Assembly: GCA_030615025.1 (NCBI GenBank)
Contig: JAUXAB010000011.1
Span: 1 to 64,000 of the forward strand
DNA from: Phycisphaerae bacterium
GTDB taxonomy: Bacteria > Planctomycetota > Phycisphaerae > Sedimentisphaerales > Anaerobacaceae
DNA: 64,000 nt
Reading direction: 5' to 3'
Shown here: positions 47,605 through 62,596 of the stretch, one piece after another
Numbering within the stretch: position 1 is the stretch's first letter
Layout of the letters: each line of letters opens with the position of its first letter
Notes under the pieces: model-generated
The model's input: only the letters and a program-made list of their open reading frames with translations
What the model was told of the DNA's origin: nothing
Database searches by the model: none
Made by a program: the position numbers and the translations under genes

Positions 47605-48261
47605 TTAAATGCTTCGCACTTGTCTAACTGCCTGGTTGTATAACCTTTCCAGGGCCCGCTGCATATCCGGCTCGACTACATCTGCATAAACCTGCGTTGT
47701 GCCTATGTGAGAATGCCCAAGCTGTTTCTGAACCAGTCGCAGGTTGTAGCCGCTGGCCCTGTAAAGTTCGCAGGCATAGGTATGTCTCAGACAATGGATG
47801 GAGTAATGAAAAGGTAAATCCGCTCTGGCCGCCGATCGCTTGAAAGCTTTTTCTATCGCTCTTGTTGTCATGTGATCCTTTGTGTTGCTGGACAAAAACA
47901 GCGGATCGCCCGAACCGGTGGGTTCTCCAACACTTTGTTTCCAAAGAAGATATTCCTCGTAATGGCGTTTGAATGATCCGTTGAACCGTACCAGTCTTTT
48001 TTTGCCGCCCTTGCCGTTCCTGACGAGGAGCGCACAGAAGCGTTCTCTGAGGAAGATGTCCTTGCACTTCAGGTCGGCAATCTCCCCTACTCGCAGCCCT
48101 GTGGACAGGGCCAGATCTACGATGAAATAGTCCCTGACAGCCACTTTGTTGCCTCGTGCAAGGGCTACTTCTGCCCTTTTTCTGGCTGTCTCCAGCAGCC
48201 TGTTTACTTCTTCCCGGGAGAGGAACTTCCCAGGATCCAGGACCCAATTTGACCTGATCAT
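47605..48261 (-). CDS. Tyrosine recombinase, short form lacking most of the core-binding domain
   Basis: STGLRVGEIADLKCKD, HCLRHTYACELYRASG, LGHSHIGTTQVYADV. Confidence 0.88.
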   Translation of the reverse strand: MIRSNWVLDPGKFLSREEVNRLLETARKRAEVALARGNKVAVRDYFIVDLALSTGLRVGEIADLKCKDIFLRERFCALLVRNGKGGKKRLVRFNGSFKRHYEEYLLWKQSVGEPTGSGDPLFLSSNTKDHMTTRAIEKAFKRSAARADLPFHYSIHCLRHTYACELYRASGYNLRLVQKQLGHSHIGTTQVYADVVEPDMQRALERLYNQAVRQVRSI

Positions 48262-52709: not shown

Positions 52710-53585
52710 AAGATTAGCCCTCGAATTTCATTCGTACCAAATTCCTATCTCGTCAAAGGATACCTGCCTGCGGCGGAATACCAATACTTGTCCTGAGTTC
52801 AATCGAAGGAATCAATAGTAAATAATCATTAATCAATTACTTAGCCGCCCCAGTTGCAAGCCCCCGTTGTTAGCTGGTTTGTAATTATACAAATTTGCGA
52901 TTAAATTACAAGGAATTCTTTTGTCTCTATGGATTGAGATAGAACAAGCATAAGAGGTGGTTAGCTACATTTTTAAATACACTTTTGCAGCTGTGCTTAA
53001 GGGCATTTAACGGGTACCCTTGTGTTCGAAACACTCGTGAACCTTCATAGAAACGGCCGAAACGCAGGATTTGCTTGTATTAATCGCCTGTGGTCTGTGC
53101 AGGAGATCTATGATTTTGATTGAGCGAAAGCTTCATTTTTCACACCAAATCTGAAAGTTTTGGACTTGATTGCCGTTACATTAAGGCAGCAAGCTAAACC
53201 TCTTGACTGTATGGCTGCTCTTGTCTATTCAACGCCAGCACTTTAATGCTTCATAATTGAACCGCTAAGTAGCAACATGACCAACGGACATTGAAAATGT
53301 TCACAAATTTCATGTTTTTCATAATCCCTTAGCGATATAGAGCTTGTGAAGTGAAAATTTTTGACGAATTGGCAGGTAACGGGCCTTTCTGACAGGAATG
53401 TTGGCCGAGTTGACGGTCAGAGGTGTTGAAATCGAACGGCGTATTGTACTATAATAGAGGCCGTAGCGTGCAGTAGTACTGTTTATGAACTCATATGGGA
53501 AATGTCGATTAATACTGCTTTTCCCTACTGGACGATTATTGGGAGGCAGATTCATACTGACTAAAGACGCCTTGGACAATGGTGT

Positions 53586-54479
53586 TTGGCAATGGACCGA
53601 AGAGAAACAAATACACTTGATTTAGTGAACAAAACAAAGTCGCTTGAAAACGCCACCAAATATTTGTGGCGTCTTCGAGACGGTAAAGCTATTGAGAGTG
53701 TTATTTTGGAACATGAGAATATGACGTGTGCATGTATTTCAAGCCAGGTTGGCTGCCCTTTGGATTGTGTTTACTGTGCGACGGGTAAACTAGATTTTGC
53801 GAGGAGTCTAACCGTAAAAGAAATAACCGAGCAAGTCTCAAGATTAGAAGCAGAATTGCAGAGTACCGAAGGAGAGAATTCCAAGTTATGGCGTGTTCTA
53901 TTTATGGGCATGGGAGAACCATTGCTGAATTACCGTTCAGTCATAGAGTCTGCAATTTTGATACACAATGAAGCGGTTAGTGATCCTACGGAAGTATTTC
54001 TTGCAACATCAGGGAGTCAGCCTGAGAAGATCAATGAGTTGGCAGTTGATGCACCTTTTATTAAGTTATGGATTACACTATGTGCTGTAGATGATAATAT
54101 TCGGGCGAAATTGATGCCAGCAGCTTCTGGCAGCTCGATTAAAGATATCCTTAGGGCGGGAGAAGCATACGCTAAGAAAATTGGACGTCCAACTCGCATA
54201 AACTACCTGATGATTGACGGTCTTACTGACACTAGACACTGTATGGAAGAGCTTGTTATGCTTTTAGCTGGAAGACCCTTCAAACTTCAGTTATCGAGGC
54301 TCAATCCAACACCAGATTCTTCTCTTTTAACTTCTTCAACAAGTATTATTCGTGAATTCGCTGACTTTACTACTCGGAGCAGCATACCGACAAGTTTATT
54401 CATGAGCAAGGGAATTGATGTTATGGCTGGCTGTGGCCAACTTGCTCCTATGCTTAAGTCGAGATGTAAGACGTCATGA
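53586..54479 (+). CDS. RlmN/Cfr-like radical SAM methyltransferase
   Basis: MTCACISSQVGCPLDCVYCATGKLDFARSL (CxxxCxxC); FMGMGEPLLNY; C-terminal MSKGIDVMAGCGQLA carrying the RlmN-type second Cys. Confidence 0.82.
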   Translation: MAMDRRETNTLDLVNKTKSLENATKYLWRLRDGKAIESVILEHENMTCACISSQVGCPLDCVYCATGKLDFARSLTVKEITEQVSRLEAELQSTEGENSKLWRVLFMGMGEPLLNYRSVIESAILIHNEAVSDPTEVFLATSGSQPEKINELAVDAPFIKLWITLCAVDDNIRAKLMPAASGSSIKDILRAGEAYAKKIGRPTRINYLMIDGLTDTRHCMEELVMLLAGRPFKLQLSRLNPTPDSSLLTSSTSIIREFADFTTRSSIPTSLFMSKGIDVMAGCGQLAPMLKSRCKTS

Positions 54480-55471
54480 ATGATGGATTGCTAACATATC
54501 CAAAGGCCATTTTGCACACTCACCTGGAGGGCAGCGTGCCGTCTGAAGCATTGAGACTACTTAGTCAGAGGAATAATATCCCTTTGTCGTTTGTACCTTC
54601 TTCTGGCAAAATATTAAATATGATAGAAACACACAACTGGAACTCATTTAGGAAAGTCTATTTCGAAATATGTTCTTGCTTCAAACTGTCCATAGATTTC
54701 TTCGAGTCTCTATTGAGCTACGGAAAAAAACTGAGAAGTAAAAACGTGATATATGCGGAAATACAATTCTCCCCATGGAAGCATATGTCTCGAGGTGTTT
54801 CCCTTGCCACTATTTCAGAAGGCTTAATTGATGCTATCGAAGATTTAGAAGCTAATCATAAAATTACCATTCGAATAATAACTGACCTTATAAGGCACAG
54901 AAACGAGGATTGTGATTCGATATTAGATTGGCTAAAAGACACACCAAGAAAATACTTTGTCGCCCTTGGGATTAGCGGTGGGATCGATGCCGTTGAAAGA
55001 AGCAAGTACAAGACATATTGTGAAAGAGCGAGGGAGATAGGGCTCAAAATAACATCACATGCTGGCGAGATCGAAGATTACAAATCAATCCGAGAAGTAA
55101 TTGATTACTGGGATACAGACAGAATTGGGCACGGTATTAGATGTATTGATAATAGAGAATTGCTCGATGAAGTCATTGAGAAACAAATACATTTTGAAAT
55201 ATGTCCTACAGCCAATAGGATTATTGGATTATGCGGGTCAAATTATAATCCCATTAGGGATATTATTGCGGCAGGGGTCAATTTTTCAGTAAATACGGAT
55301 GATGAATTAGTCTTCAACACAGACATTTTAACAGAATTCAACATCCTCATAAAGGAAGGAATTGTGTCTGCACACGATGTTGAAATGATACAAGAGAATG
55401 CTCTCGAGAACTCGTTTCTTGAAGAGAAACACAGAAATGATCTGCTCCAGGAGTATTTCGGTGGCAGTTAG
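54476..55471 (+). CDS. Adenosine deaminase-family protein
   Basis: ILHTHLEGSVPSEAL, SHAGEIEDY, DRIGHGIRC, EICPTANRIIG, SVNTDDELVFNT; ATGA overlap with upstream gene. Confidence 0.9.
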   Translation: MNDGLLTYPKAILHTHLEGSVPSEALRLLSQRNNIPLSFVPSSGKILNMIETHNWNSFRKVYFEICSCFKLSIDFFESLLSYGKKLRSKNVIYAEIQFSPWKHMSRGVSLATISEGLIDAIEDLEANHKITIRIITDLIRHRNEDCDSILDWLKDTPRKYFVALGISGGIDAVERSKYKTYCERAREIGLKITSHAGEIEDYKSIREVIDYWDTDRIGHGIRCIDNRELLDEVIEKQIHFEICPTANRIIGLCGSNYNPIRDIIAAGVNFSVNTDDELVFNTDILTEFNILIKEGIVSAHDVEMIQENALENSFLEEKHRNDLLQEYFGGS

Positions 55472-56624
55472 TAAGAATCTAGAACAATGCAATGCTCTTT
55501 TTTCTGCTGTTGGATGTGTCTGCATCCATCAGAATGAAATACTGCTACTTCGTCGCAATAAAGACAAATCGCACCCCTTTTTTTGGGGTGTCCCGACAGG
55601 AAAAATAGACTCTAATGAATCTGAAATCAGTACAATAATCAGGGAATTGTATGAGGAGACTGGTATTGTCCTATCAGGAGAAAGATTCATACACGTAAAC
55701 ACATATTGCGTTACAACTGAGGAGGTGTCTTTTACATATGCCTTGTATTATGCCAAGTTTAGAGACCTGCCCCAGATAGTTATTAATCCGGACGAGCATA
55801 ATGACTACCGATGGGTACATTATGAAAAACTTGATAATTACAAACTAGTACCCGACGCCAAAGAAACAATCCTGCTTGCACTTGAGAAGAAAAACAGCAC
55901 AAGACATAGACAATTAAATTTGTTTACAGGAGAGCCCGAAGAAGATGACCCCGCCACCTTAAATTTCAACTTGTCCCATTCGAATTTCCTGAATACTCGT
56001 CCAACCGTAACTCGTAAATGGGTAATTGCATTCGGCTCCCCTGGTTCAGGCAAGACTACCACACTTAGAGAGCTACATCGGCGACATCCTTACTCATCTT
56101 TGGTCTCCGATAACAAAAACATCTTGACAAAAGGCAGACACCTGAACAGGTATTTGCTTGAAGCTGCCGAGTACAATAGATTACTATACTACTTCTATTT
56201 TCAAATGGAAATATTGCCGGAGAAATTCAAGCAAACCATTGAAGCCAAAGAGTATTCTTTCATCGACGAGACTATATATAGCACATTGGCGTATTCAACA
56301 TCGTTATATTTATTGAGCTGGTTAACAGACGATGAGTATCATACATTCTTAGCCAACTACAGACTATATGCTACTTTATTGCCTGTGCCTTCTAAAATAC
56401 TCCACTTCAAATGTTCGCCGGAAATACTACTAAAGAGAATTTGCAGGAGAGGAAGAAGGGTAGAACAGTTCTATACTGCACGATATTTAAACTTACTCAA
56501 TATTGGATTTGAAAAAGTATCGCAGGAACTGCAAGACGCAGGCTTTAACATTATTACTATTAATACAGAACATAAGAGCACAATGGAGATCGTGGATCAT
56601 ATATATGAGGGTATATTTGAATGA
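55461..56624 (+). CDS. NUDIX hydrolase fused to P-loop nucleoside-kinase-like domain (ORF open from 55398)
   Basis: GKIDSNESEISTIIRELYEETGI matches GX5EX7REUXEEXGU; WVIAFGSPGSGKTTTLRELH Walker A. Confidence 0.85.
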   Translation: MAVSKNLEQCNALFSAVGCVCIHQNEILLLRRNKDKSHPFFWGVPTGKIDSNESEISTIIRELYEETGIVLSGERFIHVNTYCVTTEEVSFTYALYYAKFRDLPQIVINPDEHNDYRWVHYEKLDNYKLVPDAKETILLALEKKNSTRHRQLNLFTGEPEEDDPATLNFNLSHSNFLNTRPTVTRKWVIAFGSPGSGKTTTLRELHRRHPYSSLVSDNKNILTKGRHLNRYLLEAAEYNRLLYYFYFQMEILPEKFKQTIEAKEYSFIDETIYSTLAYSTSLYLLSWLTDDEYHTFLANYRLYATLLPVPSKILHFKCSPEILLKRICRRGRRVEQFYTARYLNLLNIGFEKVSQELQDAGFNIITINTEHKSTMEIVDHIYEGIFE

Positions 56625-58657
56625 AAGACACAGATAATCTTAGTGAAAACACTGTCTTTTGGACCAGAGGAAACTATCCTGCACAGGTAATACACCAATT
56701 ACAACTGAGTGAGATTGAGTACCATCTCAGGTTATTGTACTTGTTATCAGACAATATATTGGCCGCAGGATCGTTTTATTTTGAATCAGATTTAACGCGA
56801 AACATAACCGAGAAACTTAAAGAACTGTTTGGCCATACCGGAGATGTAAGTTTTTTCATAGACAACGATATAGAGAACTTCGAGGAGCATGGTTGTAAGA
56901 AATCTGAAAAGAGCCCTGCTAGCTTAATTGCTTATCGTGATTTAAGCAAAGTCAGAGAAAGGGGGAAAAGTCTGGATTCCTTCTGTAACTTAACTAGAAG
57001 ACCTCCTATATCTATCAGTGATAAGATCGTTGAACTATGGATCGAAGAGCTTAATTCAAATTTACCAGAAACATTAGGCGGTGAAATTGCCGTTAGGATA
57101 ACTGATAGGGCTTCACAAGAAAACATCAAGACGTCTCTATCGGAATTTGCAAAAAACAGAACAAAAGACTTTGTATGGGAATATTTGCAGCCCAAACTAT
57201 CTGAATTAGGATTGTGTAAATCCTTTCAATTCTGGATGCGTAAAAAGTTGTCTGATCTCTATTCTATTGCGACATCAGTAGTACTGGGCATTCCTATGGA
57301 TGCTAATATTTCTTGGCATCGTAGTTTTATTTCTGAAAAATCAAAATACGACACTTATTTATTCAGCGAATGCATAAAGGCCCTAAATCTCAATAATGCA
57401 ATTGTAGAATTGCCCACAGTGGATATTATTGCACTGAAATATAGTCAGGAGTTTCTTTATTTCAAAGAATTCTATTTTAAGCTTATCGAGGCTGCATCGC
57501 TCAATATTAACTTCATGCGAAAAATACTAATACATGCAAGCAGTGTCGAGAAAATTACGTGTTCAGGAAAATACTCAAGAGCCAGATTCATAAAATCATT
57601 TTCAACGCTGTGCAAATACTCTGATATCCCCAAAGCATCATATAAGGATCCGCTTGATTATATTCTGCACGTTTACGACAGCATCAATCGGGTTGTGATC
57701 AACACATTTGTTGAATTTGTCCAGGACTTGAATAAGGAAAAAGGTCGTGAACTGAAGGCAATGGGACGGGCTGATAGAATTAATGCCCCCCTCAAACACT
57801 ATTCGTCTGCACAAGACTTTGTGTCAAATAACATGCAAGAAATTAAGGACATCATCATAAACAAATGGAGAATTCCAAGAACTAAAACGCCCGGCAATTA
57901 TGAACAAAAAGTGATGCATATAGAAGCATGGCTTGAGAATTTTAGCGTTACTGAGTATGAACTTGTATATGAACTGATCAGACACATAAAATACTATAAT
58001 AACACAGATATAGACAAGATGCTAAAAAAAATGTCAGATGAGATAAAAGGCATCTTCAACAATCTTGCAGATATAGCCTTCTGTCCTCTCGGAACGTGCA
58101 GTAGTTCAAGCGGTTCTCAGTTTATCTATCGATTGTCAAAACATTTGGAACTTCAATCCAGGAATTTCCTAAATTCTACCCAATTGGACGACAAGCTGGA
58201 CAGAAGCTACAGAGCTATAGTTTTTATAGACGATGTAATTGGAAGCGGCAAACAGGCAACAAGGTACTGCGAAAGACACCTAAAGGGTCTTGGTATAGAT
58301 AAGTATTACTACTCCTTAGTTGCGTTTGAAAACGGCTTGAAGAATCTAGAAAAGAACTCAACTTTTGACATGGTCTTTTCGGTAACAGTACTTACTGAAG
58401 CAGAAAAGGTATTCTCAGATTCTTCTGTGATACTGCCCGATCCAACTGTACGAAATAGAATAAGGGAAATAGCACAGGAATATGGGGAAAAATTGTACCC
58501 GATGGGACCTTTGGGGTATGAAGATAGCCAGGCACTAATTGCTTTCAGTTATAACACTCCCAATAATACACTGCCAATAATATGGGCTAGTGCTAAAAAT
58601 GAAAAAGTTAAGGGATTAACCTGGAATCCTCTCTTTGAACGAAGAAAAAAAACTTAG
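56621..58657 (+). CDS. Large protein with C-terminal phosphoribosyltransferase-like domain
   Basis: YRAIVFIDDVIGSGKQATRYCERHLKGLG (PRPP-loop-like); GPLGYEDSQALIAFSYNTPNNTLPIIW; ATGA overlap with upstream gene. Confidence 0.78.
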   Translation: MKDTDNLSENTVFWTRGNYPAQVIHQLQLSEIEYHLRLLYLLSDNILAAGSFYFESDLTRNITEKLKELFGHTGDVSFFIDNDIENFEEHGCKKSEKSPASLIAYRDLSKVRERGKSLDSFCNLTRRPPISISDKIVELWIEELNSNLPETLGGEIAVRITDRASQENIKTSLSEFAKNRTKDFVWEYLQPKLSELGLCKSFQFWMRKKLSDLYSIATSVVLGIPMDANISWHRSFISEKSKYDTYLFSECIKALNLNNAIVELPTVDIIALKYSQEFLYFKEFYFKLIEAASLNINFMRKILIHASSVEKITCSGKYSRARFIKSFSTLCKYSDIPKASYKDPLDYILHVYDSINRVVINTFVEFVQDLNKEKGRELKAMGRADRINAPLKHYSSAQDFVSNNMQEIKDIIINKWRIPRTKTPGNYEQKVMHIEAWLENFSVTEYELVYELIRHIKYYNNTDIDKMLKKMSDEIKGIFNNLADIAFCPLGTCSSSSGSQFIYRLSKHLELQSRNFLNSTQLDDKLDRSYRAIVFIDDVIGSGKQATRYCERHLKGLGIDKYYYSLVAFENGLKNLEKNSTFDMVFSVTVLTEAEKVFSDSSVILPDPTVRNRIREIAQEYGEKLYPMGPLGYEDSQALIAFSYNTPNNTLPIIWASAKNEKVKGLTWNPLFERRKKT

Positions 58658-59221: not shown

Positions 59222-59521
59222 ATGGGCAATCCCGCAACCTGTGGTTCCATCGTGTTGAAGAGAGAAAGAAACGCACACTCACCTACGCTTGATACTGTGC
59301 TCATGGTAGAGGAGACCCTAAAGCAGCTTGGGGCATGTACCTTGACCGGGCTCTACAAAGCTTTGCCCAGAACCGTGATATATCCCACGCTTAAACTGAT
59401 AATCGAATACTTCTACGCAAAGGGCTTCGTCATGTCTGACAAAGAAGGCAAGATAGTCTGGGTGTACAATCCTCGCCTCGTGAGAAAGTACAAGGCCAGG
59501 CCCGACCTTAAGGTGGCATGA
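59222..59521 (+). CDS. Winged-helix antitoxin-like protein
   Basis: Small HTH-like ORF with ATGA overlap to the RelE-like gene; VEETLKQLGACTLTGLYKALPRTVIYPTLKLIIEYFYAKGFV. Confidence 0.68.
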   Translation: MGNPATCGSIVLKRERNAHSPTLDTVLMVEETLKQLGACTLTGLYKALPRTVIYPTLKLIIEYFYAKGFVMSDKEGKIVWVYNPRLVRKYKARPDLKVA

Positions 59522-59853
59522 TGGTCGGGATATACTTCGTCGATAAGAAAACCGAGAGGAATTTCCACAGATTGAGGACCAATGAGGAGCTGAAAGACCT
59601 TTACAGATTCATCCTGCGAGCCATAGATGACATCAAGCATAAACCCGATTGCGGGACCTCGATAACCAAGAGGTTGATACCGAAGAGATACATACAGAAA
59701 TATGGCATAAACAACCTGTACAAATATGATCTTCCAAATGCCTGGAGGCTGCTTTACTCGCTGGGCAGAGAGGGCATTGAGATCGTAGCCATAATCCTTG
59801 AATGGTGTTCTCACAAAGAATATGAAAGGATATTCAAATACCGGGCAAGATAA
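59518..59853 (+). CDS. RelE-superfamily-like toxin
   Basis: YKYDLPNAWRLLYSLGREGIEIVAIILEWCSHKEYERIFKY. Confidence 0.72.
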   Translation: MMVGIYFVDKKTERNFHRLRTNEELKDLYRFILRAIDDIKHKPDCGTSITKRLIPKRYIQKYGINNLYKYDLPNAWRLLYSLGREGIEIVAIILEWCSHKEYERIFKYRAR

Positions 59854-59980
59854 ATGATTGTTTGGAAGATGTGCTTGGAATCTTCAGGTCAAGCAAAACC
59901 GAAGCCTAGCGTTCTATAGTTTATGCCTTTTCACCATTTGTTTAAACATTTATCCGCACAAACGGCATTTCCTCCACAAG

Positions 59981-59990
59981 GTTTATAAAA
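59981..59990 (+). promoter_or_regulatory. Archaeal TATA box of cdc6-like gene
   Basis: GTTTATAAAA 27 nt before ATG at 60008. Confidence 0.65.
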
Positions 59991-60007
59991 TTTATGGTCG
60001 TTACGTT

Positions 60008-61057
60008 ATGACTATGCGATGGCACAACGAGCGGATTATCCTGCTTGACCCGGACATTCTCCTTGAAACCCATCTACCGCAGGAGATTAACGCGAGAGTG
60101 GATCAGATAAAGGAGATCGAGGATTGTCTCAGGCCAATCACTGAGGGCAGGAAGCCTGTGAACTGCTGGCTGCACGGCAGACCCGGCGCGGGCAAGACTG
60201 CGACCGCAAGGTCTATCATGCGTAAACTTGAGAAAGAAGCCGGCATCAGGGGCGTCTATGTCAACTGCTGGGAAAACCCCACTATTTTCTCCGTATTAGA
60301 ATGTGTTGCCAAAGAGTTGCGTATGCTCGGAGCAGAAAAGCTCAGCACATCCTTCAAGCTCGAAAGGCTTAAGAGGCACATCTCAAAGGAACGAATCGTC
60401 ATTGTGCTCGACGAGATTGATCAGTCGCCCCCGAAGGAGCGGAACGCTATCCTGTACAATCTTTGCGATTTGCCAACTGTGGGGCTGGTTTGTGTCTGCA
60501 ATTCCCAGTACGCGTACTTTGGTCTGGAGGAGCGGGTCAAGTCCAGGCTCAATCCCGCCCGAATATTTTTCGAAGAGTACACGTTCAAAGAGTTATTCAC
60601 CATTCTCGCTCAAAGGGCTCAACATGGTCTGATTCCTGACGCGTACACCAAGCAACTGTTGCAGACAGTGGCCGGTCTTGCCAATGGCGATGCCAGGATA
60701 GCTATACAGACTCTCAAGAATGCGGCATACCTGGCTGAAAGGGACAACCATGAGAAAATCAGGTCATGCCATGTGAAAAGGGCCTGGAACTCGGCGAACG
60801 ACGTGAAAAAGAGTTATCTCCTCCGCAAGCTCACTGACCATCACCGGCTCCTGTACGAGTTGATTGCGAAGAAGGCTGGAATACTATCCGGTGACCTGTG
60901 GCGGCTGTACCAGAAGATGTGCCGCACAACAGGCACTAAACCTATCGCTGTGCGGACCTATTCGGATTACTGCAACAAGCTCGTGGAAGTCGGCCTTGTG
61001 CAGGCGAAGAGAGCGGCGATACAGGGAAAGGTCAGGGAGTTTAGTGTGGTTCAATAA
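60008..61057 (+). CDS. cdc6: Orc1/Cdc6-like replication initiator ATPase
   Basis: NCWLHGRPGAGKTATARSIMRKLEKEAGIRGVYVNCWE, IVIVLDEIDQSPPKERNAILYNLCDLP, RLNPARIFFEEYTFKELFTILAQRA, NGDARIAIQTLKNAAYLAE. Confidence 0.88.
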   Translation: MTMRWHNERIILLDPDILLETHLPQEINARVDQIKEIEDCLRPITEGRKPVNCWLHGRPGAGKTATARSIMRKLEKEAGIRGVYVNCWENPTIFSVLECVAKELRMLGAEKLSTSFKLERLKRHISKERIVIVLDEIDQSPPKERNAILYNLCDLPTVGLVCVCNSQYAYFGLEERVKSRLNPARIFFEEYTFKELFTILAQRAQHGLIPDAYTKQLLQTVAGLANGDARIAIQTLKNAAYLAERDNHEKIRSCHVKRAWNSANDVKKSYLLRKLTDHHRLLYELIAKKAGILSGDLWRLYQKMCRTTGTKPIAVRTYSDYCNKLVEVGLVQAKRAAIQGKVREFSVVQ

Positions 61058-61396: not shown

Positions 61397-62596
61397 ATGA
61401 CCGAGAGTTTCCATAACTATGAACGTAAGCTGGAGAGAAGAATAGAGCTAATCAAGAAGTCTAACTTCTCTCCGAAAAACAAACGTGCCATTCTGGATTT
61501 TTCCGATTACTGTTTCTCCGAGGGACTTAGCATTCCACGCGTGGAGAAATACGTCGGCCATCTTAAGTGCCTTGCTTCTCTCTTTAAAAAGGACTTCGTT
61601 GATGCCACTAAAGCTGACATTGAGACGCTCGTAAGAATCATTCAGCAGTCCAGTTATTCCGAATGGACAAAACAGGACCTCAAGCTTACGATCAAGAAGT
61701 TCTATCGCTGGCTGCGGGGAGTCAATGAAGATCCGCAGGAGACGGCGTGGATTAAGCTCAGCCGCCGTAACTGCAACAACAGGCTTCCAGACGAACTTCT
61801 TACAGAAGAGGACATTTCCAGACTAATAGAGGCATGCCATGATCCCAGGGACAGGGCCCTCGTATCGATTCTTTACGAGACCGGTTGCAGAATAGGGGAA
61901 ATTGCATCGATGAGAATAAAGCATGTTCTTCCACACATTCATGGTTTTCGAATTATCGTATCAGGAAAGACAGGAACAAGAAGATTACTAATAATCACAT
62001 CAGCTCCATATATGACCGACTGGCTTAACATTCACCCTAAGAAGTCACAACCACAGGAATACCTGTGGGTTTCAAAAGACTTCAGAGCGTCCCTTCTGAG
62101 CTATCAGAGGATACGCGACATACTACATGCAGCAGCAAAACGAGCTGGAATTAAGAAGAGAATCAACCCGCATTCATTTCGCCACAGCAGGGCGACCCAC
62201 CTGGCTAACCATCTAACCGAGGCACAGATGAATGAAGTCTTCGGATGGAAACAGGGTTCAAATATGCCATCCATCTATGTTCACCTTTCAGGACGTGATG
62301 TCGACAACGCTCTTTTGAAGACCTATGGTATTGCCACCGACACGGGCCGGAGCCCGGAGGGCAAGCTAAAGCCAAAGGCTTGCCCGCGGTGCAAGGCACA
62401 AAACGCAACAACAAACAAATTTTGCAGCCGTTGCGGCACTGTCCTGGATCAGAAAACTGCCAGTGAAATCGTAAAGAAGAACCTTGAGCGGAACACAGCC
62501 GACCAGATTATGGACAGGCTCATCCAGGACCAGGAGTTCCGGGACATGCTCGCAAATAAGATTGCGGAACTCACAACCCCGGAAACAGGCAATTGA
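61397..62596 (+). CDS. Tyrosine recombinase/integrase with C-terminal zinc ribbon (archaeal type)
   Basis: YETGCRIGEIASMRIKHV, NPHSFRHSRATHLANHL, SNMPSIYVHLSG; C-terminus CPRCKAQNATTNKFCSRCGTVLD. Confidence 0.9.
   Translation: MTESFHNYERKLERRIELIKKSNFSPKNKRAILDFSDYCFSEGLSIPRVEKYVGHLKCLASLFKKDFVDATKADIETLVRIIQQSSYSEWTKQDLKLTIKKFYRWLRGVNEDPQETAWIKLSRRNCNNRLPDELLTEEDISRLIEACHDPRDRALVSILYETGCRIGEIASMRIKHVLPHIHGFRIIVSGKTGTRRLLIITSAPYMTDWLNIHPKKSQPQEYLWVSKDFRASLLSYQRIRDILHAAAKRAGIKKRINPHSFRHSRATHLANHLTEAQMNEVFGWKQGSNMPSIYVHLSGRDVDNALLKTYGIATDTGRSPEGKLKPKACPRCKAQNATTNKFCSRCGTVLDQKTASEIVKKNLERNTADQIMDRLIQDQEFRDMLANKIAELTTPETGN

Follow-up and report, generated by a model that had tools for sequence, protein, structure and literature searches.

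PRTases are probable effectors of retrons; paired with DprA, a PRTase gives protection from T7 and lambda (PMC9122126). The locus described here is a run of four intact co-directional genes with overlapping ends on the + strand of a Planctomycetota genome, at positions 53586-58657 of the window, which is the whole stretch of 64,000 nucleotides that was analysed. The fourth product ends in a PRTase-CE domain whose PRPP loop is intact, and the locus is surrounded by other defence genes. The reading favoured here, with middling confidence, is that of a horizontally acquired PRTase-CE conflict operon in a mobile defence island, with accessory purine-handling enzymes. The features are as follows.

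53426..53455, + strand: candidate promoter 5′ of the operon, TTGAAA-18-TATAAT, 11/12 (sequence motif, no sign of function in itself)
53586..54479, + strand: gene 1, RlmN-like radical-SAM methylase, 297 aa (TIGR00048, catalytic Cys)
54476..55471, + strand: gene 2, adenosine-deaminase-family amidohydrolase, 331 aa (TIGR01430, PDB matches)
55461..56624, + strand: gene 3, NUDIX hydrolase-dNK-like P-loop fusion (PF00293, PF01712)
56621-58657, + strand: gene 4, 678 aa (ORF and C-terminal PF24390)
56621..57910, + strand: gene 4 N-terminal ~430 aa, predicted helical (family searches without match)
57920..58642, + strand: gene 4 C-terminal PRTase-CE domain, presumed effector (PF24390, PADLOC PRTase_III-A)

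Gene layout and products

The original prediction of four co-directional genes with translational overlaps in an AT-rich block was borne out: all ORFs lie at the coordinates it gave, the ATGA overlaps at 54476 (gene 1/gene 2) and 56621 (gene 3/gene 4) are real, and the operon is the lowest-GC block of the window (0.387 vs 0.472), with GC as low in only 0.5% of equal-length stretches. When the region was shuffled 200 times, stop-free runs reached 155 aa at most; the real genes encode 297-678 aa. The ORF of gene 3 is open from ATG 55398, with GTG 55461 as an alternative start, from which the product would have about 387 aa and the gene would overlap that of the deaminase by 11 nt; GTG 55461 is probably the start used because AGGAG lies 7 nt upstream. 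The catalytic motifs were likewise found as predicted, with the radical-SAM Cys sets, the deaminase motifs, the NUDIX box, the Walker A motif and the PRPP loop all present.

Gene 1 matches TIGR00048 (RlmN) with 196 bits, under the cut-off of 290, over model positions 66-349 of 355. As the match begins at position 66, the N-terminal RNA-binding domain of RlmN (positions 1-65) is missing, and the reading frame extends only 7 codons further 5′. The product carries CxxxCxxC and both RlmN/Cfr methylation cysteines, with C50, C57, C61, C64 and C283 invariant with canonical RlmN, and is nearer RlmN (6fz6, 141 bits) than Cfr (102 bits). Measured as a member of RlmN/Cfr it thus has the radical-SAM and methyl-transfer cysteines and lacks the N-terminal domain and an equivalog score. 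Of six genomes from the same genus or family, five encode a full-length RlmN (342-376 bits), so gene 1 appears to be an extra, divergent enzyme, and its candidacy as the housekeeping RlmN of the host was rejected on this ground. In the host bin, which is 79% complete, the short RlmN alone was found. We infer that gene 1 acts without RNA substrates; the operon also documents a short RlmN-like enzyme outside the housekeeping role. Another short RlmN-like radical-SAM gene lies directly 3′ of PRPP synthetase and nicotinate phosphoribosyltransferase genes in Vibrio phage 496E54-1 (L157, 2228-5921).

Gene 2 scores 231.5 bits with TIGR01430, over the equivalog cut-off of 216.55, and has the motifs HTH, HAGE, IGHG and NTDDE. 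Its top PDB chains, 3ou8 and 3rys, are both annotated as adenosine deaminases, of which we take 3ou8 to be an adenine deaminase. Its features are mixed, with HLEG instead of HLDG as in 3ou8 and 3rys, and with the IGHG and NTDD of adenosine deaminases; judged by these motifs, adenosine, adenine or another purine is the candidate substrate. Gene 3 joins a NUDIX domain (PF00293, E=2.8e-16), with a complete box GX5EX7REUXEEXGU, to a divergent deoxynucleoside-kinase-like (dNK) P-loop domain (PF01712, E=4.2e-15). Relative to two standalone dNKs, Walker A and the lid arginines are retained in this domain, while EP is replaced by SD and DRS by DET, and with these substrate motifs altered it may not be a nucleoside kinase. 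No full-length relative or ortholog of gene 3 was found among 392 genomes of the phylum and 397 of the class, and the plasmid and phage matches span the NUDIX part only.

On gene 4, PF24390 (PRTase-CE) matches residues 434-674 with E=3.5e-48 and 165.1 bits against a gathering score of 27, and the PADLOC model PRTase_III-A, made for retron III-A, matches residues 431-677 with E=3.2e-49. In the PRPP loop IDDVIGSG, D537, D538 and G543 are invariant in the first set of relatives; in the widest set, of 20 relatives, both aspartates remain invariant and G543 is at least 90% conserved. The score above gathering and the PRPP-loop aspartates place the domain in PRTase-CE. The suggestion that PRTase-like proteins belong to conflict systems thus gains from the two profile matches, and the remark that the first ~500 aa of the protein match nothing recognised stands for the first ~430 aa; the C-terminal ~245 aa are a catalogued family, PRTase-CE. 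AlphaFold, proposed as a check on the whole protein, gave a confident C-terminal domain (pLDDT mostly >85), for which Foldseek returned type I PRTases, purine PRTases included, with E down to 6e-5; the N-terminal model was unusable because its pLDDT is mostly <60. This N-terminal region had no Pfam, PADLOC or PDB family match and no phmmer match among PRTase-CE loci, and gene 4 had no match in the phage collection.

Genomic setting and occurrence of the gene set

The predicted defence-rich island holds, with genes for AbiV, OLD-like, Cas4-like PD-(D/E)XK and AIPR proteins and three integrases in all, at 47605, at 61397 and just past the window, bounding the defence-rich stretch. A type II restriction-modification pair lies past the window (L169:4789-7330; REase 368 bits, methylase 440 bits) and is adjoined by a tyrosine integrase. 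Between operon and integrase, at 59222-59853, two short genes overlap (products of 99 and 111 aa); they are toxin-antitoxin-like, RelE/ParE-like by eye, and had no Pfam match. The gene at 59858-61057 encodes, in this bacterial genome, a Cdc6/Orc1-like AAA+ protein with Cdc6_lid and Cdc6_C (winged-helix) matches; the integrase at 61397-62596, with a C-terminal zinc ribbon, adjoins it, and together they look like an archaeal-type mobile element. The Cdc6 gene raised the suspicion of an archaeal host, which was rejected since the 16S of the host bin is bacterial.

An alignment of PRTase-CE scanned against 84,980 species gave 80 loci, and with prophage, plasmid and Planctomycetota loci added about 94 PRTase-bearing ORFs were compared. 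None of the ORFs in these loci proved related to genes 1-3 or to the gene 4 N-terminus. Genes 3 and 4 are absent as orthologs from three same-genus genomes, gave no match as single queries in scans of viral contigs, and none of the six prophage-type loci found there with the PRTase alignment has genes 1-3. The proposal of a recurrent four-gene system therefore failed its test of conservation, although such an undescribed system may yet exist: the neighbours are not conserved together in the roughly 94 PRTase-CE loci, the samples of ~400 genomes or the same-genus genomes. The proposed adenine modification, salvage or depletion pathway consequently has this one locus as its basis, and functional linkage of the four genes is argued by gene overlap alone. 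A housekeeping salvage or antibiotic operon, the other explanation that the original prediction had wanted checked, was not matched, and the same-genus and same-family genomes carry their separate full-length RlmN. The literature searched, assessed from titles and abstracts and by searching inside a few texts, yielded no description of this gene combination, and the term PRTase-CE was not found in it. With the exact set found nowhere else, the operon may represent a novel form of an anti-phage system whose general kind is known.

The partners of PRTase-CE elsewhere are varied. In about 75 of the about 94 loci, genes for an ORC-CDC6-like ATPase (PF24389) and a CARF-type protein lie 3′ of it, with a methylase usually 5′ and ThyX in some, the ThyX cluster counting 16 flanking proteins. 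This operon (e.g. L058, L072) is seen in bacteria, archaea and prophage contigs, and PADLOC scans gave no system name for the whole set. The closest PRTase-CE sequences, with 36-43% identity over the domain, are fused to or beside NACHT/STAND-type or repeat proteins, and a reverse transcriptase lies nearby in two loci. A ParB-like gene adjoins PRTase-CE in a same-genus genome (L170:4610-6327) and in another Planctomycetota genome (L023:6182-7989). Three further loci (L079:7462-10050, L120:8291-10768 and L125:8114-10786) have a conserved helical/TPR-like N-terminus of ~550 aa with PRTase-CE C-terminal, as a split pair in L125, and in L120 an AbiV-like gene adjoins the long protein. Kinship of the gene 4 N-terminus with these long N-termini was rejected, as profile comparison aligned the PRTase part only. 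Such varied partners (ORC-CDC6/CARF, NACHT/STAND, RT, ParB-like, TPR-like) make PRTase-CE a modular effector.

Possible roles of the operon

The favoured conflict operon draws, at the even level of confidence given to it, on the matches to the retron III-A effector, the part that PRTases play in retrons and in the DprA pair, the modular use of PRTase-CE, the defence surroundings, the absence from same-genus genomes, the gene overlaps, the low GC, the intact motifs and the finding that gene 1 is not the housekeeping RlmN; counting against it, in the same balance, are the single occurrence, an N-terminus without relatives or sensor match, and the altered dNK motifs. In such an operon the helical N-terminal part of gene 4 would hold the effector off or sense infection, and might stand in for the RT-msDNA, NACHT/STAND or ORC-CDC6/CARF partners of other loci. 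Once activated, the PRTase could use up PRPP, or transfer phosphoribosyl to or from a base or nucleotide, and the infected cell would be halted. Genes 1-3 may provide the purine base, nucleoside or nucleotide on which the effector acts, or alter or recycle it, by adenine methylation (radical SAM), purine deamination (the ADA-family enzyme), and removal of pyrophosphate from nucleotides and addition of phosphate to nucleosides (NUDIX-kinase). Equally, genes 1-3 might shield the host's own pool; most PRTase-CE genes are likewise accompanied by a base methylase, and sometimes by the thymidylate synthase ThyX.

The strongest rival, though a rather unlikely one, is that a PRTase-CE gene landed by chance 3′ of unrelated nucleotide-metabolism genes and that gene 4 alone is defensive. 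That the set does not co-occur in the about 94 PRTase-CE loci, and that other PRTase contexts need no radical-SAM, ADA or NUDIX enzyme, are what this leads one to expect, but three overlaps in a row (ATGA in two) and the uniform low GC argue for one co-evolved transcript. It is improbable that the operon merely salvages or detoxifies modified purines, with the PRTase returning bases to nucleotides and no defence role: although all four enzyme types (deaminase, NUDIX, kinase, PRTase) are typical of salvage, and purine PRTases are among the type I fold matches, PRTase-CE keeps conflict partners elsewhere, the island is defence-rich and related genomes lack the operon.

Quite improbable, too, is a role like that of viperin, which makes ddhCTP: the operon would produce a modified purine nucleotide that by itself stops phage replication. 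The radical-SAM enzyme would modify adenine, kinase and NUDIX would set phosphorylation, and ADA and PRTase would recycle by-products, a division of labour held to be just as doubtful. Viperin with its kinase partner (PMC12889620) is a precedent for an antiviral nucleotide, and gene 1 does keep the methyl-transfer cysteines without the RNA-binding domain and lies in one operon with a kinase-NUDIX fusion, to which the notion of such a product owes its appeal. Against this, RlmN-type chemistry is known on RNA only, an adenosine product would be destroyed by ADA, the set is not conserved elsewhere, and the effector role of PRTase-CE is better documented. A pathway dedicated to modified nucleotides is conceivable, but nothing found here supports it, and it is very doubtful that a new class of nucleotide-based immunity exists here. 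In it an RlmN-type radical-SAM enzyme, rid of the RNA-binding domain, would make a C-methylated purine nucleotide; together with ADA, NUDIX-kinase and PRTase-CE, this product would serve as antiviral metabolite or effector-gating self-mark.

For the favoured PRTase-CE conflict operon, what matters is that PRTase-CE is a widespread immune effector domain, and that its partners here are defined purine enzymes, which makes purines the substrates to look at; the operon could thereby reveal what a PRTase-CE effector does.

Comparison with known defence systems

As in RADAR and CARF-ADA (Cad1), an ADA-fold deaminase is found here in a defence setting. The operon differs from both in having no RdrA ATPase, no CARF domain and a deaminase of canonical size (331 aa), and membership in either was rejected for want of RdrA and CARF. 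Profile scans gave no RdrA-like match among the neighbours tested, and the original statement that the locus is not RADAR, made on deaminase size and the missing ATPase, was upheld.

The type III-A retron shares the PRTase-CE domain. It has, however, a reverse transcriptase and an msr/msd RNA, whereas the operon has no adjoining RT, an unmatched N-terminus of ~430 aa and three metabolic partners. RVT_1 was absent from the neighbouring proteins scanned and Rfam had no match at 47-64 kb; retron membership was rejected on the lack of an RT and of an Rfam match. The DprA-PRTase pair (PMC9122126) is alike in the presumed effector role of its PRTase, whose partner there is DprA. The Anammoxibacter loci L020 and L064-L069 (NACHT/STAND-type/repeat PRTase-CE) hold the closest sequences; they have NTPase and repeat sensors where the operon has a helical region, and no radical-SAM, ADA or NUDIX gene.

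The dominant context, methylase-PRTase-CE-ORC-CDC6-like-CARF (PF24390, PF24389, PADLOC CARF6), differs in that the operon has no adjoining ORC-CDC6-like, CARF or DNA methylase gene and a different kind of methylase. Membership was rejected, the neighbours being radical-SAM, ADA and NUDIX-kinase genes, and the AAA+ gene at 59858-61057 was rejected as the ORC-CDC6-like partner ATPase, as it matches Cdc6_lid and Cdc6_C and not PF24389. The two operons nevertheless have the same PRTase-CE, both open with a base-methylating enzyme, and the dominant one, like the operon described here, may include a nucleotide enzyme.
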